Below, one piece after another: positions 3 through 16,600 of a DNA stretch of 38,464 nt (the stretch's first letter is position 1; every line of letters starts with the position of its first letter). A model generated the notes under the pieces. That model was not told the DNA's origin, ran no database searches, and saw only the letters and a list, made by a program, of their open reading frames with translations. This DNA is from Hydrogenothermaceae bacterium (GTDB lineage: Bacteria; Aquificota; Aquificia; Aquificales; Hydrogenothermaceae), in NCBI GenBank assembly GCA_027030405.1, contig JALVEZ010000073.1, positions 1 to 38,464 on the forward strand, written 5' to 3'. Both the position numbers and the translations under genes were made by a program.

Positions 3-119
3 ACACTTGTTCAGAACTTAAAAGGTGGAATGGAAGCCTGGTTAGAAGAACATGATGAGATTGTTGAGGAAGATGAATATGAACCACCTAAAGCTGGTGG
101 TGGTGGTGGTTGCTTATAA
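3..119 (+). CDS. Rhodanese-like protein, C-terminal end (5' end outside window)
   Basis: Only the last 38 codons are present, open to the left edge and ending in TAA. The stretch VQNLKGGMEAWLEEH matches the closing helix of rhodanese domains, where NLxGGxxAW is conserved, so this is probably a sulfurtransferase or sulfur-binding domain protein. An acidic linker follows, then a tail PPKAG-GGGG-CL in which five glycines are encoded by a perfect (GGT)5 run at 96-110. The cysteine is the penultimate residue, as in the DsrC/TusE arm. The last gene of the same operon ends almost identically. The catalytic loop is outside the window, so activity cannot be judged. It lies 54 bases before the molybdoenzyme gene on the same strand. 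Confidence 0.7.
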   Translation, partial: TLVQNLKGGMEAWLEEHDEIVEEDEYEPPKAGGGGGCL

Positions 120-173
120 TAGCAATAATATTAATGAATACTAAAGGTTATTAAACACAAGGAGGTAAGATTT

Positions 174-3086
174 ATGGCCTTATCAAGAAGGGACTTTCTA
201 AAAGTTCTAAGTGCTACGGGAGCTGGAGTGACTTTAGGTGGTAACGCAGCTTTTGCAAAAGATAAAGCGTTGATGGTTGAAGATCCAAGACACTCTTACC
301 CAAACAGCTCTTATACAGAAAATATGTATAGAAAAGAGTTTGCTTACACTTACGGTAAGAAAGAAGAACACGGAACAGCTTACCACTGTGTAAACTGTCA
401 GGGTAACTGTGCATGGGATGTTTGGGTAGATAATGGAATAGTAACAAGGGAAAACCAGGTTGCTAACTATCCTCAAATAAATGCAAAAATCCCTGATTTT
501 AACCCAAGGGGTTGTAATAAAGGGGTTCAGCATTCTCAAATAATGTATGAAAAAGATAGAATTCTTTATCCTTTAAAAAGGGTAGGAAAAAGAGGCGAAG
601 GTAAGTGGAAAAGAATTACATGGGATGAAGCTGTAACAGAAATAGCAGAAAAAATTTATGAAACAATGCTCAATAAAGGGCCTGAAGGTTTATATATCCA
701 CGTTGGTGCAGGTATGCTTACAGAAGGTAGAGCAGCATCTGGTAAGAGATTAGGTGCTTTGCTTGGAGCTGTAAGACCTTATATTGCATCATACGTTGGT
801 GATATGTTCCAGGGTGTATCTGTTGTTTATGGTGAAGGTAACGTAGGTTGTACATGGGACTTCCAGTACGTAACAGATGTCCAAGTATATTGGGGAATGG
901 ATCCTAACAAAACAAGAATTCCTGATGCTCACTTTGTATGGGAAGGAAAGTATAACGGTTCAAAAGTTATAGTAATTTCACCAGAATTTAATGCTACTGC
1001 AATTCATGCAGATTTATGGATACCTGTAAGAGCTGGATATGATTCATTTTTAGCAATGTCTGTAATGAATGAGATCTTCCAGAAAAAACTTTACAAACCT
1101 CAATTTATAAAAATATTTACAGATTTACCTTTCTTAGTAAGATTAGACAATAAAAAACTTTTAAGACTTTCAGATATTGATGTGGAAAATCCTCCTCCAG
1201 AATTTGATGAGGAAATTTACAAAGTATTTGAAGAAAAAGCAGAAGGAGGAGAGTTTGAAGCAGATGCTTGTTTCTTCTCATGGAACACAAAAACAAATAA
1301 GTTAACTTTAATGCCTGGAACAGAAGGAAACCCGATTAAAACATTAAGACTTAAAGATGTTGGTTGGGATATTGATCCTGCCCTTGAAGGTAAATGGGAA
1401 GTTACATTAAAAGACGGAACTAAAGTTCCTGTAACTACTGTGTTTGAACTCGTAAAAGCAGAAGCTGCTAAGTTCCCAGCAGAAAAGACTCATAAGCTCA
1501 CAAATGTTCATCCTAAATTAGTAGAACAGTTGGCGATTGATTTAACTCAGCCAAAAGTTGTTAACTTAAACGTTGGATTTACACTAGGTAAATATTTTAA
1601 CGGATTGTTAGGACATAGAAACGTTGCTTCATTACCTGGTTTAAGTGGAAGACTTGGGCCATACGGTGGTTTAAACACTGAGAATGAAGTGGCAATCTCA
1701 GGTATGGGTGTTATCTCAAGTTTTGCTGGTAAATACAAACACAGATTTGCTTCTGGTTTTGTAAGTGAGTACGTTTTAGGAAACGTTTTTGAATCAGCTG
1801 AAAAACTTTACTCTGATGAAGATATCAAGAGAGGAACAGGTTGGTCTAAAGATAAATATATCCAAACAGTAAAAGATATACTTAAGAAAACAGCAAATGA
1901 CGAAGGAAACAAAAATGTTAAGAAGACTGATGGAAAACCATACTGGACAACAGTAGAAACATTCCTTTTATTTGCAGATGCAAGATTTAGAAGAAACAAA
2001 GGTGGAACATACAAAGAAGCATTCCTTAAAAAAGCTAAATTCTTAGCATACGTTGATTTTAGAATGAGTGATTTTGCAACTTATGCAGACATTGTATTAC
2101 CTGCAAAATCTCACTATGAAGTATGGGATATAAGAACAAATCCTGGATACCATAGATTTGCAAACTTAGCACAACCTCCTCAAAACTTAAAACCAGTTGG
2201 GGAAGCTAAAGATGAATGGTCAATCTGTACAATGATTGTTGAAAAGCTTGAAGAAATTGCTAAGAAAAAATACAAAGAAACTGGTGATGAAAGATACATT
2301 AAGATACCTGATGAAGAACACCTTGCAGAAGGTGGATACAGACCAATGGATAAATTGGTTGAACTTTATACTGAAGAAGGAAAACTTAGAACAGATTTTG
2401 ATGCAGTTAAAATGGCACTTGAAAACGTTGACCAGTTTAAACCAAATACAATAGAGTCAATGAGAAAAAGAGGTGGCTTCCTTGTATTAAATGAAAAAGC
2501 AGGAAAGTCTTCACCTTTATATCCAGACAAACCTTACAACTCTTTTGAAAACAACCTTTACTTATTCGAAAGATTTGAAACATTATCTGGAAGATTAACT
2601 TACTATGTTGACCATGACCTCTGGATTGAATTAGGTGCTAATGTTCCAACAGCAAGAGAGCCAATCAGACCTAAGAAATATCCATTTGTATTAATGACTC
2701 CTCACGCAAGATGGTCAATTCACTCTACTTATAAGACATCTAAAACTCTCCTCAGATTACAGAGAGGAAAACCTTACGTAATGATTAATCCTGAGATTGC
2801 TAAGAAAAAAGGTATCAAAGATGGAGATGAAATAAGAGTGTTCAACAATATCGGTGAATTTTATGCGATGGCTAAAGTTTATCCATCTGCACCTAAGGAT
2901 GCAGTTCTTATTGAACACGGATGGGAACCATTCTTCTTCAAGAATAAGAAAAACCATAATGATGTAGTTGGTGACTTGCTAAACCTTCTTGAGCTTTCAG
3001 ATGGTTGGGGACACTTGAAATTCGGTGGTAACTGGGATGGTAACCAACACGCTTATGAAACATCAGTAGATATTGAAAAGGCTTAA
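174..3086 (+). CDS. Type II DMSO-reductase-family molybdopterin oxidoreductase, catalytic subunit
   Basis: This is the catalytic subunit of a periplasmic Mo-bis-PGD enzyme, 970 residues. The N-terminus has a twin-arginine signal (SRRDFLK, residues 4-10, then a hydrophobic stretch and AFA cleavage site), so it should be exported folded. The FS0 cluster ligands are H71, C75, C79 and C114, spaced HX3CX3CX34C exactly as in NarG, which places it in the type II group with nitrate, selenate, chlorate, dimethyl sulfide and ethylbenzene enzymes. An Asp in VGDMFQG (about residue 208) is a plausible Mo ligand. The C-terminal cofactor-binding domain starts near residue 840 (LMTPHARWSIHST). A strong GGAGGT site precedes the ATG. 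Subunits beta and gamma follow directly. The substrate cannot be told from sequence; the rhodanese neighbour suggests a sulfur compound, but nitrate, selenate or another oxyanion remains possible. Confidence 0.88.
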   Translation: MALSRRDFLKVLSATGAGVTLGGNAAFAKDKALMVEDPRHSYPNSSYTENMYRKEFAYTYGKKEEHGTAYHCVNCQGNCAWDVWVDNGIVTRENQVANYPQINAKIPDFNPRGCNKGVQHSQIMYEKDRILYPLKRVGKRGEGKWKRITWDEAVTEIAEKIYETMLNKGPEGLYIHVGAGMLTEGRAASGKRLGALLGAVRPYIASYVGDMFQGVSVVYGEGNVGCTWDFQYVTDVQVYWGMDPNKTRIPDAHFVWEGKYNGSKVIVISPEFNATAIHADLWIPVRAGYDSFLAMSVMNEIFQKKLYKPQFIKIFTDLPFLVRLDNKKLLRLSDIDVENPPPEFDEEIYKVFEEKAEGGEFEADACFFSWNTKTNKLTLMPGTEGNPIKTLRLKDVGWDIDPALEGKWEVTLKDGTKVPVTTVFELVKAEAAKFPAEKTHKLTNVHPKLVEQLAIDLTQPKVVNLNVGFTLGKYFNGLLGHRNVASLPGLSGRLGPYGGLNTENEVAISGMGVISSFAGKYKHRFASGFVSEYVLGNVFESAEKLYSDEDIKRGTGWSKDKYIQTVKDILKKTANDEGNKNVKKTDGKPYWTTVETFLLFADARFRRNKGGTYKEAFLKKAKFLAYVDFRMSDFATYADIVLPAKSHYEVWDIRTNPGYHRFANLAQPPQNLKPVGEAKDEWSICTMIVEKLEEIAKKKYKETGDERYIKIPDEEHLAEGGYRPMDKLVELYTEEGKLRTDFDAVKMALENVDQFKPNTIESMRKRGGFLVLNEKAGKSSPLYPDKPYNSFENNLYLFERFETLSGRLTYYVDHDLWIELGANVPTAREPIRPKKYPFVLMTPHARWSIHSTYKTSKTLLRLQRGKPYVMINPEIAKKKGIKDGDEIRVFNNIGEFYAMAKVYPSAPKDAVLIEHGWEPFFFKNKKNHNDVVGDLLNLLELSDGWGHLKFGGNWDGNQHAYETSVDIEKA

Positions 3087-3107
3087 TTTAAAAAGGAGGT
3101 AAATTAA

Positions 3108-4208
3108 ATGTCAAAAAGACAACTTGCAATGGTAATGGATTTAAATAAATGTATAGGTTGCCAAACTTGTACAGTTGCATGTAAAACACAATGGACAAAT
3201 AGAAATGGTAGAGAATACATGTACTGGAACAACGTTGAAACTCAGCCAGGTGAAGGTTATCCAAGAGGATGGCAAGAAGCAGGTGGAGGTTTTGACGAAA
3301 ACGGTAACCTTCAGGATGGTATCATTCCTGATATGGTTCTTGATTACGGTGTGCCTTGGGATTATAACCACGATGAGCTTTTTGAAGCAGAAAATATTCA
3401 ACCAGATTCTGACCCTGTATGGGGACCAAACTGGGATGAAGACGTTGGTGAAGGTGATTGGCCTAACTCTTACTATTTCTATTTACCAAGAATTTGTAAC
3501 CACTGTTCAAACCCAGGATGTTTAGCTGCTTGTCCAAGAGAAGCTATATTCAAAAGAGAACAGGATGGAATTGTTTTAGTTGATTTAGATAGATGTCAGG
3601 GATACAGATACTGTATTGCAGGATGTCCTTACAAAAAGATCTATTTCAATCCAAAACTTTCAAAATCAGAAAAATGTATATTCTGTTTCCCAAGAATTGA
3701 AAAAGGTTTACCTCCAGCATGTGCTCATCAGTGTGTTGGAAGAATTAGATTTGTAGGATTCTTAGATGATAAAGAAGGACAGGTTTACAAACTTGTTCAC
3801 AAATATAAAGTTGCATTACCATTAAGACCAGATATGGGAACACAGCCAAACGTATATTATGTTCCTCCAGTTCTCCAACCACCTAAATTTGACGAGAACG
3901 GAAAACCTATCGAAGGTGAAGACAGAGTTCCAATAGAGTACTTGGAAAAACTTTTTGGTCCAGCTGTTCATGAAGCAATTGCTGTACTTAAATCTGAGAT
4001 GGCTAAAAGAGAAAGAGGAGAAGAATCTGAATTAATGGATATTCTTATTGCATATAACCATGCTGATATGTTCAGATTAGATAACGAATACTATCAAAAC
4101 ATTGCTGCTGAACAAGGATTAAAAGGCTCTGAATTCTTTAAAATTGTTGATTCAAGATATATACAAGGTGCAAATACTCAGAAAATAGAAATTAAATCTT
4201 ATTTCTAA
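3108..4208 (+). CDS. Iron-sulfur beta subunit of the type II molybdoenzyme
   Basis: A 366-residue NarH-like electron-transfer subunit carrying four clusters. Ligand groups are C15/C18/C21/C25, C130/C133/C138/C142, C163/C169/C173 and C190/C193/C205/C209. In the third group the fourth expected cysteine is Tyr166 (CQGYRYC); NarH has Trp there and binds [3Fe-4S], so one [3Fe-4S] and three [4Fe-4S] clusters are likely. The block GCPYKKIYFN followed by SEKCIFC is nearly the NarH signature. There is no signal peptide, as expected for a subunit co-exported with its Tat-bearing partner. It begins 21 bases after the catalytic gene with a strong AGGAGGT site, and passes electrons from the Mo site to the gamma subunit. 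Confidence 0.9.
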   Translation: MSKRQLAMVMDLNKCIGCQTCTVACKTQWTNRNGREYMYWNNVETQPGEGYPRGWQEAGGGFDENGNLQDGIIPDMVLDYGVPWDYNHDELFEAENIQPDSDPVWGPNWDEDVGEGDWPNSYYFYLPRICNHCSNPGCLAACPREAIFKREQDGIVLVDLDRCQGYRYCIAGCPYKKIYFNPKLSKSEKCIFCFPRIEKGLPPACAHQCVGRIRFVGFLDDKEGQVYKLVHKYKVALPLRPDMGTQPNVYYVPPVLQPPKFDENGKPIEGEDRVPIEYLEKLFGPAVHEAIAVLKSEMAKRERGEESELMDILIAYNHADMFRLDNEYYQNIAAEQGLKGSEFFKIVDSRYIQGANTQKIEIKSYF

Positions 4209-4213
4209 ATCGT

Positions 4214-4232
4214 GGAAGGGGGTAACCCTTCC
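4214..4232 (+). other. Intercistronic hairpin between beta and gamma genes
   Basis: A perfect 7-bp GC-rich stem, GGAAGGG/CCCTTCC with loop GGTAA, starts five bases after the beta stop codon. No T-run follows, so it is not a normal intrinsic terminator. It probably stabilises the upstream mRNA or tunes expression of the gamma gene, which starts 34 bases further on. Confidence 0.6.
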
Positions 4233-4266
4233 TTAACCTAAATTAGAAGTTAAGGAGGAACTAATA

Positions 4267-5460
4267 ATGAAAAAAGCTTTAAAAGCTGCCATATTCGGTA
4301 TTACAGCAGGGGTAACTGCTTTAGCTTTTAGTGCAAATGCAGGAATTAAAGATTTTTACAAATGGGAAGTTTTAAACGCAAAGTATGTAAATGATGAATT
4401 ACCAACAGATCCAAAAGCTGATTTATGGAAATCAGTTCCAGGAAAAAAAGTTTATCTTTACCCTCAAGTTTCAGTAAGACTAAATGATAAAAAAGCTAAC
4501 GAAATTATTCCAAGAAAACGTTTAACTGCAGCTTTAGTGAAAGTTGCTTACAACAGAGATAATATTGCTGTTTATATCACTTGGAAAGATAAAACTCCTT
4601 CTATCCAGCCTGCAGTTACTACAAATGCTTTTGCAGATGGTGTAAGTATAGAATTTCCAAACAAATTTGGAAAAGGAATAACACTTCCTTATATAGGGAT
4701 GGGAGATTCAAAACATCCTGTAACTGTTTATCTACAAAAAGAAGTTGCTGGTAGAGATTATCAGAAATCATTTATTTCTGAAGGATTTGGTTCATTAACA
4801 GAAATAAATGAACCTGATGTAGATGTTGTTATGGTCTATAACAAAGGAAAAAGAGAATGGACTGCAGTATTTAAAAGACCTTTAAAAACTGAAAACAGCA
4901 ATCTTAAAGCTGGTTTAGTTCCTATAGGTTTTGCAATCTGGGATGGAAGCCAATATGAAAGAGATGGAAATAAATCTTTATCAAGATGGAAATTTATCAG
5001 ATTAGGAAAATATGAATTAGATAAAGATTACCTTTCTTACGTATCTTGGGGTGATATGATTCATAAAGAAGGAGACCCTGAAAGAGGAAAACAGTTAATG
5101 GCTCAAAATGGATGTAACGGTTGTCACAGATATGATGATCAGCAGATGGCTCCTGAAGGAATGGCTCCTAACCTTTACAATATCGGTGGAATTGCACATG
5201 CACCATACTTAAGAGATTCTATTGTTGATCCAAACGATGTTGTCATCAAGAACTTAAACCAGAACAGACATTACAATAAAGCTGGTGCAAAAGATGTAAA
5301 CGGTGCATATCCTAATAATGATATGTTTACATGGTATATAGTAAATCCTGATGGAACTGTAAGCTCTAAAATGCCTCCGTTCAACTTCTTACCGGAAGAA
5401 GACATAAAAGATATTGTTGCTTATTTAAAAACTTTAAGAACATGGAAAAACTTCAAGTAA
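4267..5460 (+). CDS. Gamma subunit: ethylbenzene-dehydrogenase-type heme-b domain fused to cytochrome c
   Basis: A 397-residue secreted protein with a Sec signal peptide (about residues 1-25, cleaved near ANA). Residues 30-255 are a beta-rich domain resembling the heme-b gamma subunits of type II molybdoenzymes (EbdC, DdhC, SerC, ClrC). Residues 262-397 are a class I cytochrome c with one CXXCH at 283-287 (NGCNGCHRY) and a likely Met ligand in SSKMPPFN near 368. Known gamma subunits normally lack this second domain, so the fusion gives the enzyme a built-in heme-c outlet, plausibly to a periplasmic cytochrome or oxidase. No membrane anchor is visible beyond the signal. Start chosen at the ATG behind AAGGAGGA. 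Confidence 0.85.
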   Translation: MKKALKAAIFGITAGVTALAFSANAGIKDFYKWEVLNAKYVNDELPTDPKADLWKSVPGKKVYLYPQVSVRLNDKKANEIIPRKRLTAALVKVAYNRDNIAVYITWKDKTPSIQPAVTTNAFADGVSIEFPNKFGKGITLPYIGMGDSKHPVTVYLQKEVAGRDYQKSFISEGFGSLTEINEPDVDVVMVYNKGKREWTAVFKRPLKTENSNLKAGLVPIGFAIWDGSQYERDGNKSLSRWKFIRLGKYELDKDYLSYVSWGDMIHKEGDPERGKQLMAQNGCNGCHRYDDQQMAPEGMAPNLYNIGGIAHAPYLRDSIVDPNDVVIKNLNQNRHYNKAGAKDVNGAYPNNDMFTWYIVNPDGTVSSKMPPFNFLPEEDIKDIVAYLKTLRTWKNFK

Positions 5461-5477
5461 TTTAGGAGGAAATAACA

Positions 5478-5897
5478 ATGAAGATTTTATTAAAAAGATT
5501 ATTTCTTTTGCTTTTAGTATTAACTGTTGCAGTTAATACATCTGTATTGGCTGAAGAGGATGAAGAAGCAGAAGAAGTTGAACTTTACAGTGCAGTTATT
5601 ACAGCAAAATCCTGTGCAGAAAAAGCTTTAAAAACTGGAAATTATGACATCTTAACAAACTGTCCTCCTGTTGAAGCTGCTAAAACTGGATATGTGATAT
5701 TTGATCCTGTTGAGGGTGAGTATTACTATGTAAAATTAGGTGAAATTTATCAATATGAATTAGATGAAGGCTTTAACGGGAACATTGATATCTCAGGTGT
5801 AATTGTAGGAGAAAAAGATGGAGTTCCTGTTATCGAGCCTGAAGATTACTCAATTAGTCCAAAACCAAAAGCTGGATTCTTCAAAGGTTGTTTATAA
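5478..5897 (+). CDS. Small secreted protein with DsrC/TusE-like C-terminal cysteine tail
   Basis: I do not recognise the family. It is 139 residues with a clear Sec signal (residues 1-25, ending VLA), then an acidic run (EEDEEAEEVE) and a small globular part. It has cysteines in KSCAEK and TNCPPV, and a third as the penultimate residue of the tail PKPKAGFFKGCL. That tail matches the end of the upstream rhodanese-like protein (PKAGxxxGCL in both). It is the last gene of the molybdoenzyme operon, 17 bases after the gamma gene, and is followed by a terminator. It could be a periplasmic sulfur-carrier or redox partner of the enzyme; this is inference. An assembly role is the main alternative. Confidence 0.8.
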   Translation: MKILLKRLFLLLLVLTVAVNTSVLAEEDEEAEEVELYSAVITAKSCAEKALKTGNYDILTNCPPVEAAKTGYVIFDPVEGEYYYVKLGEIYQYELDEGFNGNIDISGVIVGEKDGVPVIEPEDYSISPKPKAGFFKGCL

Positions 5898-5907
5898 TCT
5901 AAATTAT

Positions 5908-5930
5908 GGGGGTTTTATCCCCCCTTTTTT
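5908..5930 (+). terminator. Intrinsic terminator of the molybdoenzyme operon
   Basis: GGGGG, loop TTTTAT, CCCCC(C), then TTTTTT and further T-rich sequence. It closes the + strand operon 10 bases after the last stop codon and reaches into the 3' end of the converging globin gene. Confidence 0.9.
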
Positions 5931-6819
5931 ATTTACTTTTCTTTGCAATCAGCCAGTAGGTAATCCCTAAAAATAAAACAATCAAACCATAAGCCAGTAA
6001 GTCGATATATTTTCCTGTAGAAAGAGCCGCAATAAGTATTTTTCTTATCATAGCTGCCAGAGCAACGCCGATAAACGCACCTAAAGCAAATCCACCACCT
6101 CTGAGATGTTTAAGCTCTTCAGTCATAAGTTCACTAACTGCCCATAGAATAAGAAGACTACCTAAAACCCTTATAATACCTTCTTCAAATTTTACTTCAC
6201 CAATAAGAAGATCGTAAATATCCGTGACAAAAAGTTCCAGCACGAAGAAAGCCACAATGATAAGAGCAATTACCAGTATTAAATCAAGTAAATCAGCAAC
6301 TTTTTTAGATATGTTAATTAATGTTTTTTCTATTTTTGATTTTGTAGAATGTTTTTCAATTTCTGCATCTATGTAAGATTCTGTAATTGTATCAAGGTTT
6401 ATATCAAGCAGTTTATTTATTGAATTTATCATTTCTTTTCTTTTTTTAGGATTATCTATTTCTTGATTTATCTTGTCTATAATGAATTCTCTAATGAAAG
6501 AAAAACTTATATTTACGTAATGATTTGGCCAGCCAATATTTACGTGCTCTTTACCTATTTCTTTTAGAAAATTGAAATAGTTCTTATCATACTTTCCTTC
6601 GAACAATAAACGGAACCATTTTTGAACTTCATTTTTATGTTTTAGAACTATCTCTTCAGAATATAAATAATCTTTTACATTGGGAAGATTAAATATAAAA
6701 TCATAAAATTCCTTTAAAAATTCTTTTTCGTACTTCTCCATAATAGATGCTAGTTCTTTGATGTTCTCAATGTCTTTTTGTGAAAACCCGTAATTTTTCA
6801 TCAACTGTTTTGGATTCAT
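5929..6819 (-). CDS. Protoglobin/globin-coupled-sensor domain fused to PsiE-like membrane domain
   Basis: The protein has 296 residues. Residues about 1-160 resemble the sensor globin of globin-coupled sensors and protoglobins: an all-helical domain with the segment IGKEHVNIGWPNHYV, where His92 sits at the proximal heme-ligand position and the following IGxPxxY pattern is typical. Residues about 170-296 hold four hydrophobic helices and a segment LRGGGFALGAFIGVALAAMIRK, matching the PsiE-type phosphate-starvation membrane family. The likely role is a membrane protein that senses O2, NO or another heme ligand. There is no kinase, methyl-acceptor or cyclase output. It stands alone, converging on the molybdoenzyme operon and diverging from tRNA-Phe. 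The heme assignment is by motif only. Confidence 0.75.
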   Translation of the reverse strand: MNPKQLMKNYGFSQKDIENIKELASIMEKYEKEFLKEFYDFIFNLPNVKDYLYSEEIVLKHKNEVQKWFRLLFEGKYDKNYFNFLKEIGKEHVNIGWPNHYVNISFSFIREFIIDKINQEIDNPKKRKEMINSINKLLDINLDTITESYIDAEIEKHSTKSKIEKTLINISKKVADLLDLILVIALIIVAFFVLELFVTDIYDLLIGEVKFEEGIIRVLGSLLILWAVSELMTEELKHLRGGGFALGAFIGVALAAMIRKILIAALSTGKYIDLLAYGLIVLFLGITYWLIAKKSK

Positions 6820-12110: not shown

Positions 12111-13398
12111 AATTATCCTCTCTATCTTGACCAACTTCTGTTAATCTTACATTCGAAATACTGTTTATATCTTTATCTGAATCAAACTTTATATGTATAT
12201 AATTTCCAGTCAGTCCTATTTTTTTCCCTTCTTTTTCTCCAATGATCAGAACTTCTAAATTTTTATCAAGATATCTTTTTCTAAACGCAACATTTTTTTC
12301 TTCAGAAATTTTTCTCAGGATATTTGTTCTTCTTTTTTTCTCAGATGGATGAACAGTATCTCCTAATTTCACTGCAGAAGTTCCTTCCCTTTCTGAGTAC
12401 GTAAAAACGTGTATATAAGCAAATGGAATATCTTTTATATTATTCAAACTGTTTTCAAATTTCTGTTCTGTTTCAGTTGGAAATCCAGTAATAATATCCG
12501 TTCCTATGGCTGTATCTGGTCTTCTTTTTAAAATCTTTTTAACAACGTCCATATACTCTTTAACTGTGTAATTTCTTTTCATATCCCTTAAAACATCATC
12601 ATCTGCCGATTGCATAGATAGATGAAAATGAGGGGCTATTTTTTCCTCAGATGTGATAAGCTCTAAAAGCTCTTCATCAATCTCATTAATCCCCATAGAT
12701 GAAAGTCTTATTCTGTAAAGTTCAGGTACTTTAATAAGATTTTTTAAAAGTTCGTTCAAATTTCCTTCTTTGTGATCATAGCCAAATTGAGAAAGTTGTG
12801 TCCCTGTGAGAACAATTTCTTTAAATCCTTGCTGTGTTAAGATTTCGACCTGTTTTGTTATATCTCCAATTTTTGCACTTCTAACCTTTCCTCTGGCAAA
12901 TGGGATGATACAAAAACTACAAAAACTGTTACAACCTTCTTGAACTTTTAAAATTGGTCTTGCACCTTCATAAAAAGTGCTGATCTGGAAAGTGTGAAAC
13001 TGGTTTTCCCTAAAAATATTGTCTATAAAAATTTTATCTTCATTTTTTTCATTCAGATAGTTTTCAATAATCTCATATACTGCATTTTTATGTGAGTTAC
13101 CGATAACAATGTCAACTTCTTCCATCTTTGCAATTTCTTCTGGATTTACCTGAGCATAACAACCTGTAGCAACTACAACAGCATTTGGATTTCTTCTTTT
13201 TGCCTGTCTTAATGTTTTTCTTGATGTCCTATCTGCATCATTTGTAACCGTGCAGGTGTTTACAACATAAATATCTGCAATATCTTTAAAATCTGTAAGC
13301 TGATAACCTCTTTTCTCAAAGGTTTCCTCTATTGCAGAGGTCTCAAACTGATTCATTCTACATCCTAATGTTGTAAGTGCAACTTTTACAGGTTTCAT
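12094..13398 (-). CDS. mtaB: tRNA (N6-threonylcarbamoyladenosine37-C2)-methylthiotransferase
   Basis: A radical-SAM enzyme that converts t6A37 to ms2t6A in ANN-decoding tRNAs. It has 434 residues in the family order: an N-terminal UPF0004 domain with three cluster cysteines (TLGCRMNQFET, NTCTVTNDAD, ATGCYAQ), a radical-SAM core with CNSFCSFCIIPFARG, and a C-terminal TRAM-like region. TLGCRMNQFET and VTNDADRTSRK favour MtaB over MiaB. It heads a four-gene minus-strand operon with the DsrE-like, thioredoxin-fold and orphan genes. The functional link to the periplasmic proteins is unclear and may be only positional. Confidence 0.9.
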   Translation of the reverse strand: MKPVKVALTTLGCRMNQFETSAIEETFEKRGYQLTDFKDIADIYVVNTCTVTNDADRTSRKTLRQAKRRNPNAVVVATGCYAQVNPEEIAKMEEVDIVIGNSHKNAVYEIIENYLNEKNEDKIFIDNIFRENQFHTFQISTFYEGARPILKVQEGCNSFCSFCIIPFARGKVRSAKIGDITKQVEILTQQGFKEIVLTGTQLSQFGYDHKEGNLNELLKNLIKVPELYRIRLSSMGINEIDEELLELITSEEKIAPHFHLSMQSADDDVLRDMKRNYTVKEYMDVVKKILKRRPDTAIGTDIITGFPTETEQKFENSLNNIKDIPFAYIHVFTYSEREGTSAVKLGDTVHPSEKKRRTNILRKISEEKNVAFRKRYLDKNLEVLIIGEKEGKKIGLTGNYIHIKFDSDKDINSISNVRLTEVGQDREDNYGKEI

Positions 13399-13482
13399 TA
13401 ATTTTCCCTTACAGATAAATTTTTTAAGTCAGTCTCAAATATATTCGGAAAAAAGATGTTTCTCAATGGAATAAATCATAAA

Positions 13483-14151
13483 TTATTCAGAATAAGCCAT
13501 TTCAATGGCTCTTTTGATGTCTTCAAATAGCGTTTCTTTGGCGTTTGGATTTCTCAGAACATAAGCAGGATGGTAAGTCAGGTAAACCAGTCTTCCTTCC
13601 CAGTTTATAGCCGTTCCTCTTTCTTTGGTTATTTTTACAGGTCTTTTCAGTATTCCAAATGCTGCCGCAGCACCTAAAAGACATAAAACCTTTGGATTTA
13701 CAACCTCAATCTGTTTTTTTAGGTATGGAAAACATGCTTCCTGTTCCATTGGGGTAGGAGTTCTGTTTCCAGGAGGTCTGCATTTTACAGTATTTGCAAT
13801 ATAAAACTCTTCTCTTTTATGTCCTGTCGCCTCAATCAGAGAAGTGAGTAATTTTCCTGCCCTACCTACAAAAGGTCTTCCTAATCTATCCTCGTCTGCA
13901 CCTGGTGCTTCTCCGATAAACATAAGTTTTGCATTTACATTACCTTCACCTAAAACAGCCTGTGTTCTGCTAAGGTGTAGATCACACTTTGTACATTTTT
14001 GAATTTCTTCATTAAGCTTTGCAAGTATTTTCAGTTTTTCTTCTGTCGACAATCCGTTATTTTCCACTTCTTCTCCAATATCTGGAATAAAAAGCCCATC
14101 TATTCCGATTTCTTTTAAAATTTTTAGATGTTTTATTAAATCATCTTTCAT
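13483..14151 (-). CDS. udg: Family 4 uracil-DNA glycosylase (thermophile type, 4Fe-4S)
   Basis: Removes uracil from DNA, important where heat speeds cytosine deamination. It has 222 residues. Motif GEAPGADEDRLGRPFVGRAG (80-99) carries the active site and HPAYVLRNP lies near the C-terminus. Cluster cysteines are C53, C56, C124 and C140, matching the CX2CXnCX14-17C pattern of family 4. The first 45 residues are a charged extension before the core domain. Its start codon overlaps the clpS stop by one base (TAATG), so translation is probably coupled. Confidence 0.93.
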   Translation of the reverse strand: MKDDLIKHLKILKEIGIDGLFIPDIGEEVENNGLSTEEKLKILAKLNEEIQKCTKCDLHLSRTQAVLGEGNVNAKLMFIGEAPGADEDRLGRPFVGRAGKLLTSLIEATGHKREEFYIANTVKCRPPGNRTPTPMEQEACFPYLKKQIEVVNPKVLCLLGAAAAFGILKRPVKITKERGTAINWEGRLVYLTYHPAYVLRNPNAKETLFEDIKRAIEMAYSE

Positions 14152-14429
14152 TATAAATAAATCTCAGTTCTTAAATCTATCTCTTCTAAAATTTTTGAAA
14201 CTTCTAACGCTTCTTCAAAATCACCTTCATAAACTTTAGCCTGTCCTTTTGTATGGACTTCCATGGTAAGTTGTTCCGCCGTATATATGTCGCATTTTAT
14301 AGCCTTAATCAGCTGTTCTATAACTTCATCAAATGTATGCCAGTCATCATCAAACAGTATAACTTTTGCAGGTATTTCAGTTATTACTTCATTATCAACT
14401 TCTTGTTGAAACTGGTGCTCCAGTGACAT
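14151..14429 (-). CDS. clpS: ClpS-like adaptor protein
   Basis: ClpS delivers N-degron substrates to ClpAP. The protein has 92 residues with the core KVILFDDDWHTFDEVIEQL, AEQLTMEVHTKGQAKVYEG and a terminal LRTEIYL strand, all at expected places. The usual DDxxT/NxxxxV pattern is slightly changed to DDDWHTFDEV, and the His before Lys-Gly (VHTKG) is kept. It starts three codons after the GAGGTAAG site and lies five bases after the nadD stop. The nadD-clpS-udg order looks like one transcript. Confidence 0.85.
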   Translation of the reverse strand: MSLEHQFQQEVDNEVITEIPAKVILFDDDWHTFDEVIEQLIKAIKCDIYTAEQLTMEVHTKGQAKVYEGDFEEALEVSKILEEIDLRTEIYL

Positions 14430-14434
14430 GCTTC

Positions 14435-15061
14435 TTACCTCTTATAGAAATTTTTTTTAATAATATACTCTTCTATCTCTGGTAAAACAAGATATTTTAT
14501 TGATTTTCCTGTTTTTACTCTGCTTCTGATCTCTGTGGAAGAAATATCAATTCTCCTTGAATCAAAATAGAATATTTTAGTTTTATCTGGTTCTATATTT
14601 CTATCTGTTGAGAGTTGTATATCAGGAAAATACTCATCTAAATAGTCCTGAACATTATAAAAAGAGTCTTTACCACGACCTACAACAATAAAATTTGTCA
14701 GTTTTATGAGCTTATCTGCATCTTTCCATTTGTGTAACGACAATAAAGAGTCCGTTCCAACTATAAAAACAGGATTGTAATTTAATCTTTTTCTATATTC
14801 ATTGATTGTATCAATAGTGAAGGATTTCCCTCCTTTTCTTATCTCAAGATCATCAATCTCAAAGTATGGATTGTATCTGATTGCCATTTCTAACATTTTT
14901 AGTCTGTCTTTTGCTGGAGCTTTTGAAGAAGGTTTTAAAGGGGAGTGGTAAGCAGGGATAAAAACAATTTTGTCAAAATTGAAATCTTCTCTGATATCTT
15001 CAGCAATTCTTAAATGACCTATATGAACAGGGTCAAAGCTTCCTCCGTAAAGAGCAATCAA
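14435..15061 (-). CDS. nadD: Nicotinate-nucleotide adenylyltransferase
   Basis: Forms deamido-NAD from nicotinate mononucleotide and ATP; its product is the substrate of NadE, encoded about 17 kb further on. It has 208 residues, with the nucleotidyltransferase motifs GGSFDPVHIGHL (6-17) and ISSTEIRSRVKTGKSI near the C-terminus, plus FIVGTDSLLSLHKWKD in the middle. The start is TTG, with GGAGG about ten bases upstream; no ATG is nearby in frame. It is the first gene of nadD-clpS-udg. Confidence 0.94.
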   Translation of the reverse strand: MIALYGGSFDPVHIGHLRIAEDIREDFNFDKIVFIPAYHSPLKPSSKAPAKDRLKMLEMAIRYNPYFEIDDLEIRKGGKSFTIDTINEYRKRLNYNPVFIVGTDSLLSLHKWKDADKLIKLTNFIVVGRGKDSFYNVQDYLDEYFPDIQLSTDRNIEPDKTKIFYFDSRRIDISSTEIRSRVKTGKSIKYLVLPEIEEYIIKKNFYKR

Positions 15062-15132
15062 AAAAATAATCCTCCAGATAATTTTAAAAATTATAATCCG
15101 AAGACAATGAAATTGATATGATAGAAAATATG

Positions 15133-15160
15133 ATACGGCCTCTCTTAAGAGAGGCCGTAT
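15133..15160 (-). terminator. Terminator of the htrA gene
   Basis: A perfect 28-base palindrome, ATACGGCCTCTC-TTAA-GAGAGGCCGTAT, 12 bases after the htrA stop. On the minus strand it is followed by CATATTTTCTAT, a moderate T-run. It separates htrA from nadD-clpS-udg. Confidence 0.85.
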
Positions 15161-15172
15161 TGTGTTAAGAAA

Positions 15173-16600
15173 CTATTTTGTAACTATTGGCATAACCGTA
15201 AAGATATTTGCTGTTCCTCTTTGAACGAAGAGAAGAACACTATCTTTTTTAAGTTTTTCTACTTTTTTTACCATTTTCCAGAACTCATTTGCAGAATGAA
15301 CAGGTTTCCTGTTTACTTTAAGAATAATATCTCCTGTTCTTAAACCTGCTTCGTCTGCTGGACTGCCTGCTTTTACTCCTAATACAATAACTCCATATGG
15401 AACTTTAGGGATACTGAATCTTTCTACAAGTTCAGGTGTTATATCTCCAACGATTAATCCATATTTTGCTTCCATTTCTTGAAGATTTCCTGTTTCTTCA
15501 TATTCTTCATCCCAAGGAGCTGTTTTTACAGTGATGGTTCTTTCTTTTCCATCTCTTATAACTGTTATTTTCACCTTTGTTCCAGGTGGATTTCTCATAA
15601 TGTACTTTTGTAAATCATTTGTTGTATAAACAGGTTTTCCATTAACTGCAACAATAATATCACCAGGTTTTATACCTGCTTTATCTGCAGGGCCACCTTT
15701 TAAAACTTTTGATACAAGGACACCTTTATCAACTTTGAAATGTTCTGCAAGTTCAGGTGTTAATTCCTGTATTAACACCCCAATTTTACTTCTTTTAACT
15801 TTTCCATATTTTAAAAGCTGATCCATTACCCATTTAGCCTGATTAATAGGAACTGCAAAACCTAATCCCTGTGCACCCATAATGATTGCCGTATTGATAC
15901 CTACAACTTCTCCACGGACATTAACAAGTGGCCCACCTGAATTTCCTGGGTTAATAGCTGCGTCTGTTTGTAAGAACCCTTCTCCTGGATGTCCTTCGAG
16001 TGTTCTATTTAGTGCAGAGATTATACCTTTTGTAACTGTTCCAGTGAGCCCTAAAGGACTACCGATAGCAATCACCATATTACCAGGCTTTAATTTGTCA
16101 GAATCACCTAATTTTAAAACATGTTTTGATGCAAATTTTTCTATCCCCTTTTTGAAGGGAACAGCAACCAGTGCAACATCACTTAACTTATCTTTTCCTA
16201 TTACTTTACCGTCAAGTGTAACCTTGTTTTTAAATCTAACCTGTATATTTGTTGCATTTTCGATAACATGGTTATTTGTAAGAAGATAAACAAGTTTTTT
16301 CTTGTAATCAATTTTCACAATAAACCCTGAACCTAATCCTTCTCTTTTCTGTGTAAACTCCCTTTTATTTGGAATACCAAAGAAGTCTCTAAAAGGCAGA
16401 TCTGCGAAAGGATTAGGAATTTTTACTTCCTGAACTGTAAAAATTGTTGCGACACCAGGTGAAACCTGGTCAACAATATTTACCACTTCGTTGTCCATCT
16501 TTTGCAATAGACTTTCTGCATGTGAACTTACAGAAGCGATAAAAAGAAATAGGGCCAATATATTTAGCCTGAGAAATGCTGGATTTTTAGACATCCACAT
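15173..16600 (-). CDS. degP: Periplasmic serine protease, HtrA/DegP family
   Basis: A quality-control protease and chaperone of the envelope, 475 residues. There is a hydrophobic signal (about residues 9-28, ending SHA), then a trypsin-like domain with triad His111 (TNNHVIE), Asp141 (SDVALVAV) and Ser221 (NPGNSGGPL). Two PDZ domains follow (about 270-365 and 380-470), each with an LxxGDIIxxVNxKPV core, which is the DegP/DegQ layout. The start at 16600 is supported by AGGAGG nine bases upstream; a second Met is two codons later. It is transcribed alone and diverges from the AhpD-like gene. Confidence 0.93.
   Translation of the reverse strand: MWMSKNPAFLRLNILALFLFIASVSSHAESLLQKMDNEVVNIVDQVSPGVATIFTVQEVKIPNPFADLPFRDFFGIPNKREFTQKREGLGSGFIVKIDYKKKLVYLLTNNHVIENATNIQVRFKNKVTLDGKVIGKDKLSDVALVAVPFKKGIEKFASKHVLKLGDSDKLKPGNMVIAIGSPLGLTGTVTKGIISALNRTLEGHPGEGFLQTDAAINPGNSGGPLVNVRGEVVGINTAIIMGAQGLGFAVPINQAKWVMDQLLKYGKVKRSKIGVLIQELTPELAEHFKVDKGVLVSKVLKGGPADKAGIKPGDIIVAVNGKPVYTTNDLQKYIMRNPPGTKVKITVIRDGKERTITVKTAPWDEEYEETGNLQEMEAKYGLIVGDITPELVERFSIPKVPYGVIVLGVKAGSPADEAGLRTGDIILKVNRKPVHSANEFWKMVKKVEKLKKDSVLLFVQRGTANIFTVMPIVTK

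Follow-up and report, generated by a model that had tools for sequence, protein, structure and literature searches.

Two proteins with invariant penultimate-cysteine tails flank a periplasmic molybdoenzyme in Hydrogenothermaceae and are candidate sulfur-carrier arms

Contig JALVEZ010000073.1 of a Hydrogenothermaceae bacterium (Aquificota; assembly GCA_027030405.1), read from base 1 over its whole length of 38,464 nucleotides (hereafter the window; contig G000:C73 in our set), opens with an operon encoding a type II molybdoenzyme of the DMSO reductase family. The enzyme genes are flanked upstream by a gene for a rhodanese-domain protein and downstream by a gene for a small secreted protein. The bodies of these two proteins are unrelated, and both proteins end in a similar tail with a penultimate Cys. 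These tails are real and more conserved than the bodies that carry them. By analogy with known systems, there is about an even chance that the two proteins are sulfur-carrier arms serving this ClrA/SerA/DdhA-like periplasmic molybdoenzyme, comparable in function to SoxY and DsrC and homologous to neither.

The tails were followed in 391 genomes sampled across the domain, of which 136 belong to the Aquificota and 41 to the Hydrogenothermaceae, a family from hot springs and vents (350 lie outside this family and 255 outside the phylum). In the window, positions 3-116 (+) read ...EYEPPKAGGGGGCL and are followed by a stop codon, while the small protein at 5478-5897 (+) terminates in ISPKPKAGFFKGCL before its stop. 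The initial annotation had noticed a common cysteine-bearing end on the two proteins, and this observation was borne out: every homologue found keeps the tail, and none lacking the tail Cys was encountered among 33 small proteins and 30 tailed rhodaneses, all of which have it at position -2. The small protein is present in 33 of the 136 Aquificota genomes, in one family only, and all matches extend to the last residue in protein searches that were blind to the tail. A profile built from 19 sequences recovered the same 33 from the 391 genomes; beyond these it gave just two marginal matches, both partial and both in long frames unrelated to the gene. All 33 distinct genes end in I[ST]PKPK[AP]GFFKGCL. 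The tailed rhodanese was located by BLAST in 21 loci, with a PPxxGGGGGCL end in each (21/21), and this end is kept in the full set of 30 distinct genes. Codons in the tails have drifted synonymously with the residues fixed, as exemplified by the last position of the small protein, for which six Leu codons are used. Invariant columns account for 12/14 of the tail versus 19/89 of the body in the small protein (Fisher p=5e-6), and for 9/11 versus 31/121 in the tailed rhodanese (Fisher p=4e-4).

The tails are also specific to this operon. A search for PKx5GC[LVIMF] directly before a stop retrieved, per family genome, mainly the two tailed genes, lying 5.3-5.9 kb apart when on one contig, with a few further matches within the family; the reversed-pattern control gave about 0 matches. 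The matches read in other families were no gene ends of any length, save one doubtful frame of 123 codons. Likewise, GGGGGCL followed by a stop occurs in 31 of the 41 family genomes, at the tailed rhodanese gene; in the other 350 it ends just two frames, of 9 and 101 codons, neither of which looks like a gene. No tail was detected in the 255 non-Aquificota genomes by either the small-protein profile or the GGGGGCL pattern, and no tailed rhodanese gene was found apart from the molybdoenzyme operon in any family genome. Random occurrence of the tail on unrelated genes, which would have undermined its significance, was thus not seen, the pattern being limited almost wholly to the two tailed genes. 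A chance resemblance was rejected on the grounds of this specificity, the column invariance and the restriction to the operon.

The motif first described, PKAGxxxGCL, has to be narrowed to P-x-x-G-x-x-x-G-C-L, the P, G, G, C and L being common to both tails. Its Pro-Lys part does not hold: position -9 of the rhodanese tail is K in 13, A in 9, S in 6 and Q in 2 sequences, followed by A, M or I, and the residue behind the second PK of the small protein (position -8) is P in 25 sequences and A in the other 8. Because K and A are not conserved in both proteins, the identical PKAG of the window is partly accidental. The two tails may have a common origin or may be convergent, so short a sequence being compatible with both. 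The possibility that the tails are GlyGly-CTERM-like C-termini for sorting or anchoring was considered and rejected: such signals are expected to include a transmembrane (TM) segment and a basic stretch, neither of which follows the Cys-Leu here.

The first gene of the window is truncated by the contig end, and its full copy lies on contig G000:C117 (L084:46-549(-)). The ends of these contigs share an overlap that contains a mismatch, and we infer their join from this shared sequence and from the gene order of relatives. With a membrane helix at its N-terminus, the tailed rhodanese is predicted to be membrane-anchored. Its rhodanese domain matches PF00581 over the cut-off (E=4e-10 to 5e-10, with 4e-10 for the full copy), and no other Pfam match was obtained; a plasmid search for the protein also returned no match. 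Each of the 30 sequences has exactly three Cys, including the one in the tail. Past the central strand, the loop is [VI]S-x-x-G-[DN] in 30/30, whereas catalytic rhodaneses have C-x-x-G. The active-site Cys is thus predicted to be replaced by Ser in all 30, an assignment placed by motif register, as the profile alignment to the upstream two-domain rhodanese (TST) reached the N-terminal half only, without the loop. Because the tailed rhodanese lacks a catalytic Cys, its tail Cys becomes a candidate working thiol. The TST itself keeps its Cys, in the loop CHVGxGRGS. AlphaFold models of the tailed rhodanese were poor (pLDDT 48, two sequences) and were not used.

The small protein starts with a signal peptide, and two Cys in its body are invariant. 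It matches no Pfam or NCBIfam family and has no PDB relative by sequence. AlphaFold gives its body a pLDDT of about 90 and residues 134-139 values below 50, so that the tail is predicted to be disordered beyond a confident OB-like body; Foldseek returned weak OB-fold matches to this model (best E=0.14). A tail that is disordered in the model and invariant in sequence is as expected of a functional arm.

The enzyme between the two tailed proteins has the subunit layout of the type II DMSO reductase family (ClrA, SerA, DdhA, EbdA and PcrA), namely Mo, Fe-S and heme b subunits, and shares with it the Mo-ligand Asp (VGD aligned with TGD of ClrA) and the His/Cys FS0 motif (H71-x3-C75-x3-C79). The beta subunit passes TIGR03478 (539 vs 481 bits). 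The heme b gamma subunit passes PF09459 (60 vs a cut-off of 33) and fails TIGR03477 (115 vs 170), and both CxxCH Cys of the cytochrome c domain fused to it are invariant (n=24). The alpha subunit scores 806 bits with TIGR03479, below the cut-off of 985, which none of the 136 Aquificota genomes exceeds. Its nearest characterised relative is the chlorate reductase ClrA of Ideonella (36.6% identity), and in the tree it forms a clade of its own, sister to ClrA and a ClrA-like sequence (support 90/87). The window enzyme differs from the type II family in this separate clade, in the sub-threshold TIGR03479 score, in the cytochrome c fused to the heme b subunit, in the flanking tailed genes and in an extra Cys. 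The latter, Cys72 of the 174-3086 product, is invariant, stands right after the FS0-ligand His (HCVNC) and is absent from the ClrA and NarG relatives. The nearest solved chains are PcrA (4ydd/5e7o) and EbdA (2ivf). When the sequence is aligned to PcrA (4ydd), I, A and E stand in place of F164, Y165 and W461, the aromatic gate residues of perchlorate reductase, and on this basis the entrance would be more open here.

The molybdoenzyme and the small protein are co-distributed and absent from all other Aquificota families, nearly all mismatches being draft genomes; no alpha-subunit match at E<=1e-100 was found in Aquificota outside the Hydrogenothermaceae. Two variants can be noted. One family genome carries a divergent molybdoenzyme copy (L176, G085:C8, 1-892 (-); 52% identity) that has Ser for the Mo-ligand Asp (VGS for VGD) and no tailed rhodanese upstream. 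In the complete genome G097 (L068, at about 14900-15000), a deletion begins at the start of the tailed rhodanese gene and reaches into that of the Mo subunit, so that most of the tailed rhodanese and about 120 N-terminal residues of the molybdoenzyme are lost.

Loci of 13-20 kb each were taken from more than 20 Hydrogenothermaceae genomes, and the gene order in these relatives is constant: two-domain periplasmic rhodanese (TST), TsuA/YeeE-type transporter, tailed rhodanese, Mo subunit, Fe-S subunit, heme b/cytochrome c subunit and small tailed protein. Across ten genera, the tailed genes directly adjoin the enzyme genes on both flanks. The expectation that the tails would cluster with sulfur genes was also confirmed, since the genes for the TST and for a homologue of TsuA/YeeE-type thiosulfate transporters (PF04143, 113 bits) adjoin the tailed rhodanese in nearly every locus. 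Our literature searches found no description of this operon. Table 1 gives its coordinates in the window.

Table 1. Features of the tailed molybdoenzyme operon at the start of the window
Feature	Position	Strand	Details
3' end of tailed rhodanese-domain gene (product predicted to be membrane-anchored)	3..119	+	38 codons + stop
Rhodanese tail PPKAGGGGGCL, penultimate Cys	84..116	+	PPxxGGGGGCL invariant, 30 distinct genes
Catalytic subunit of type II DMSO-reductase-family molybdoenzyme	174..3086	+	Tat signal, Mo-ligand Asp, His/Cys FS0 cluster motif
Four-cluster iron-sulfur subunit	3108..4208	+	TIGR03478 539 bits, cut-off 481
Heme b (ethylbenzene-dehydrogenase-like) subunit fused to C-terminal c-type cytochrome domain (CNGCH)	4267..5460	+	PF09459 60 bits, PF00034 42 bits
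Small secreted protein, 139 aa	5478..5897	+	Signal peptide, two invariant body Cys, OB-like body, tail predicted to be disordered
Small-protein tail ISPKPKAGFFKGCL, penultimate Cys	5853..5894	+	I[ST]PKPK[AP]GFFKGCL invariant, 33 distinct genes

The surroundings of the operon vary. In relatives, it is followed by a second molybdoenzyme set comprising an Fe-S subunit, NrfD and a PhsA-like/polysulfide-reductase-like Mo subunit (L031, 9533-14280, and equivalents), which does not follow it in the window genome. In its place stands, on the opposite strand, a single gene for a protoglobin-PsiE domain fusion (5929-6819 (-)), both domains of which score over the Pfam cut-off; the fusion is an unusual one. 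Since the window genome has another downstream neighbour, the tailed module is independent of the second molybdoenzyme set. On the other side of the operon, the TsuA-like transporter gene is present in three tandem copies before the tailed rhodanese in one genome (L065, G076, 12165-15601 (-)).

Several known carriers invite comparison with the tailed proteins. DsrC and TusE differ from them in being cytoplasmic and in having a helical fold of their own. What they have in common with them is a flexible C-terminal arm whose penultimate Cys precedes a small hydrophobic residue, and a conserved penultimate C-terminal Cys is indeed found in both tailed proteins. Homology to DsrC/TusE, with which the initial annotation compared the tails, was rejected: PF04358 matches neither tailed protein and is over the cut-off in none of the 41 family genomes, and the small protein is OB-like. 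In DsrC, the penultimate Cys (Cys111) is the sulfur-binding residue (PMC3397948). In SoxY, the Cys of the GGCGG end sits on a flexible C-terminal arm and carries persulfide or sulfonate between enzymes (PMC6067878). SoxY is, like the tailed proteins, periplasmic with a mobile Cys-bearing C-terminus, which is Gly-rich and carries sulfur intermediates to several enzymes, including the molybdoenzyme SoxCD. Its Cys is third from the end, whereas the tails here have a penultimate Cys (GGGGGCL and GFFKGCL), and the bodies are not homologous. Membership of the SoxY family was excluded, as the tails do not end in GGCGG, TIGR04488 matches a separate gene and the small protein has no NCBIfam match. LbpA of the Hdr-like pathway is another carrier of sulfur oxidation with a Cys near its C-terminus, often flanked by Gly (PMC6067878), but it is lipoylated and cytoplasmic with a GcvH fold, and thus differs from the tailed proteins in location and fold. 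Lastly, the Mo subunit of the sulfane dehydrogenase SoxCD has a sulfite-oxidase fold, and the window enzyme, as a member of the DMSO reductase family, does not belong with it.

It is because of the SoxY and DsrC precedents that a sulfur-carrier arm is proposed here, by analogy. The penultimate Cys, on a flexible arm, would bind sulfur as a persulfide, perhaps later as a sulfonate. One carrier, a rhodanese domain that appears to have lost its own catalytic Cys, would be anchored in the inner membrane, and the other would be soluble and secreted, both facing the periplasm. Sulfane sulfur from thiosulfate or polysulfide would be supplied by the upstream TST and the TsuA-like transporter, and loaded onto the tails by the TST. 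The arms would then present it to a partner encoded in the same operon, most likely the Tat-exported molybdoenzyme, in a reaction that we infer to be oxidative, with electrons leaving via the Fe-S clusters, heme b and the fused cytochrome c. More speculatively, one tail might carry the sulfur and the other resolve the intermediate, with sulfite released and a mixed disulfide formed. A tentative extension is that sulfur bound to the tails of the two dedicated carriers is the natural substrate of the enzyme, which might then be a SoxCD analogue that belongs to another, unrelated family of molybdoenzymes and has a rhodanese without catalytic activity as its membrane-anchored carrier.

The sulfur genes of the family give this proposal a loose context. 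True SoxY (TIGR04488) is encoded by a separate gene in 27 of the 41 family genomes, SoxC (TIGR04555) is over the cut-off in none, and a distant gene of the sulfite-oxidase family occurs in 16. In the window genome, a sulfite-oxidase-family gene (L139, G000:C24, 1099-2628 (-)) is followed by genes for small c-type cytochromes, a monoheme one among them; the arrangement is SorAB- or SoxCD-like, and the sulfite-oxidase-family product scores below the SoxC cut-off. Of 23 near-complete genomes, 18 have the operon and SoxY, 2 the operon only, 1 SoxY only and 2 neither, a pattern that is suggestive and not significant; G104 is a genome with neither. Given this loose link to SoxY and the sulfite-oxidase-family gene in 16 genomes, a role of the operon as a strict replacement for SoxCD is not supported. 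Venenivibrio, a member of the family, has no full Sox pathway according to a published survey (PMC10762115).

Of the initial carrier-arm interpretation, what stands is the fit of the disordered, invariant Cys end and of a tailed rhodanese without catalytic Cys; the Pro-Lys part of the motif and the DsrC/TusE homology do not. That an end confined to this operon is shared by two unrelated bodies speaks for carriers. Four points weigh against them. First, the sequence may fit a sulfur carrier, a docking tail or a disulfide tail alike. Second, the working residue might instead be one conserved Cys in the body of the tailed rhodanese. Third, G097 retains an intact small protein despite the deletion of the tailed rhodanese and of the molybdoenzyme N-terminus. 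Finally, the operon is not tied to Sox: among genomes that are at least 99% complete, two have the operon without SoxY and one has SoxY without the operon.

A rather unlikely alternative is that the tails dock or tether. The end would be a recognition peptide for one shared partner (the molybdoenzyme, the cytochrome domain or each other), its Cys forming a structural disulfide, for instance between the tailed proteins, that holds the complex at the membrane with no sulfur carried. An end common to two unrelated bodies, one of them membrane-anchored and one soluble, is what a tether would have, and the non-Cys residues (GFFK, GGGGG and the final Leu) are as invariant as the Cys. However, the tails agree only in P, G, G, C and L, which is odd for a single binding groove, and both the loss of the rhodanese catalytic Cys and the sulfur genes nearby speak for sulfur chemistry. 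It is also unlikely that the enzyme uses a free small molecule (chlorate, selenate, thiosulfate or a sulfide, like its relatives), with the tailed proteins forming a separate sulfur-handling or thiol-protection module of the operon. ClrA, the nearest characterised relative and its sister in the tree, is a chlorate reductase, and no tailed genes lie next to the closest relatives of the enzyme outside the family, the nearest non-Aquificota molybdoenzymes included, but the tailed genes abut the enzyme genes on both sides in ten genera and no tailed rhodanese was found elsewhere in family genomes. A redox- or sulfur-sensing switch, with oxidation or persulfidation of the tail Cys serving as a signal and not to provide a substrate, is very improbable: ready reaction is to be expected of a lone exposed Cys on a flexible end, but the periplasmic location, an operon without a regulator and a redundant pair of tails make a switch less natural.

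Should the sulfur-carrier proposal be true, rhodanese domains would be reusable as carriers, and enzymes of the DMSO reductase family would be able to use protein-bound substrates. Incomplete Sox systems without SoxCD are common, and the oxidation of the sulfane sulfur left over is only partly understood. The products that accumulate after SoxCD loss have been shown (PMC9959259). For the oxidation of sulfane sulfur in Aquificota, this periplasmic operon, which is family-wide and encodes two invariant Cys tails, would offer a concrete candidate route.

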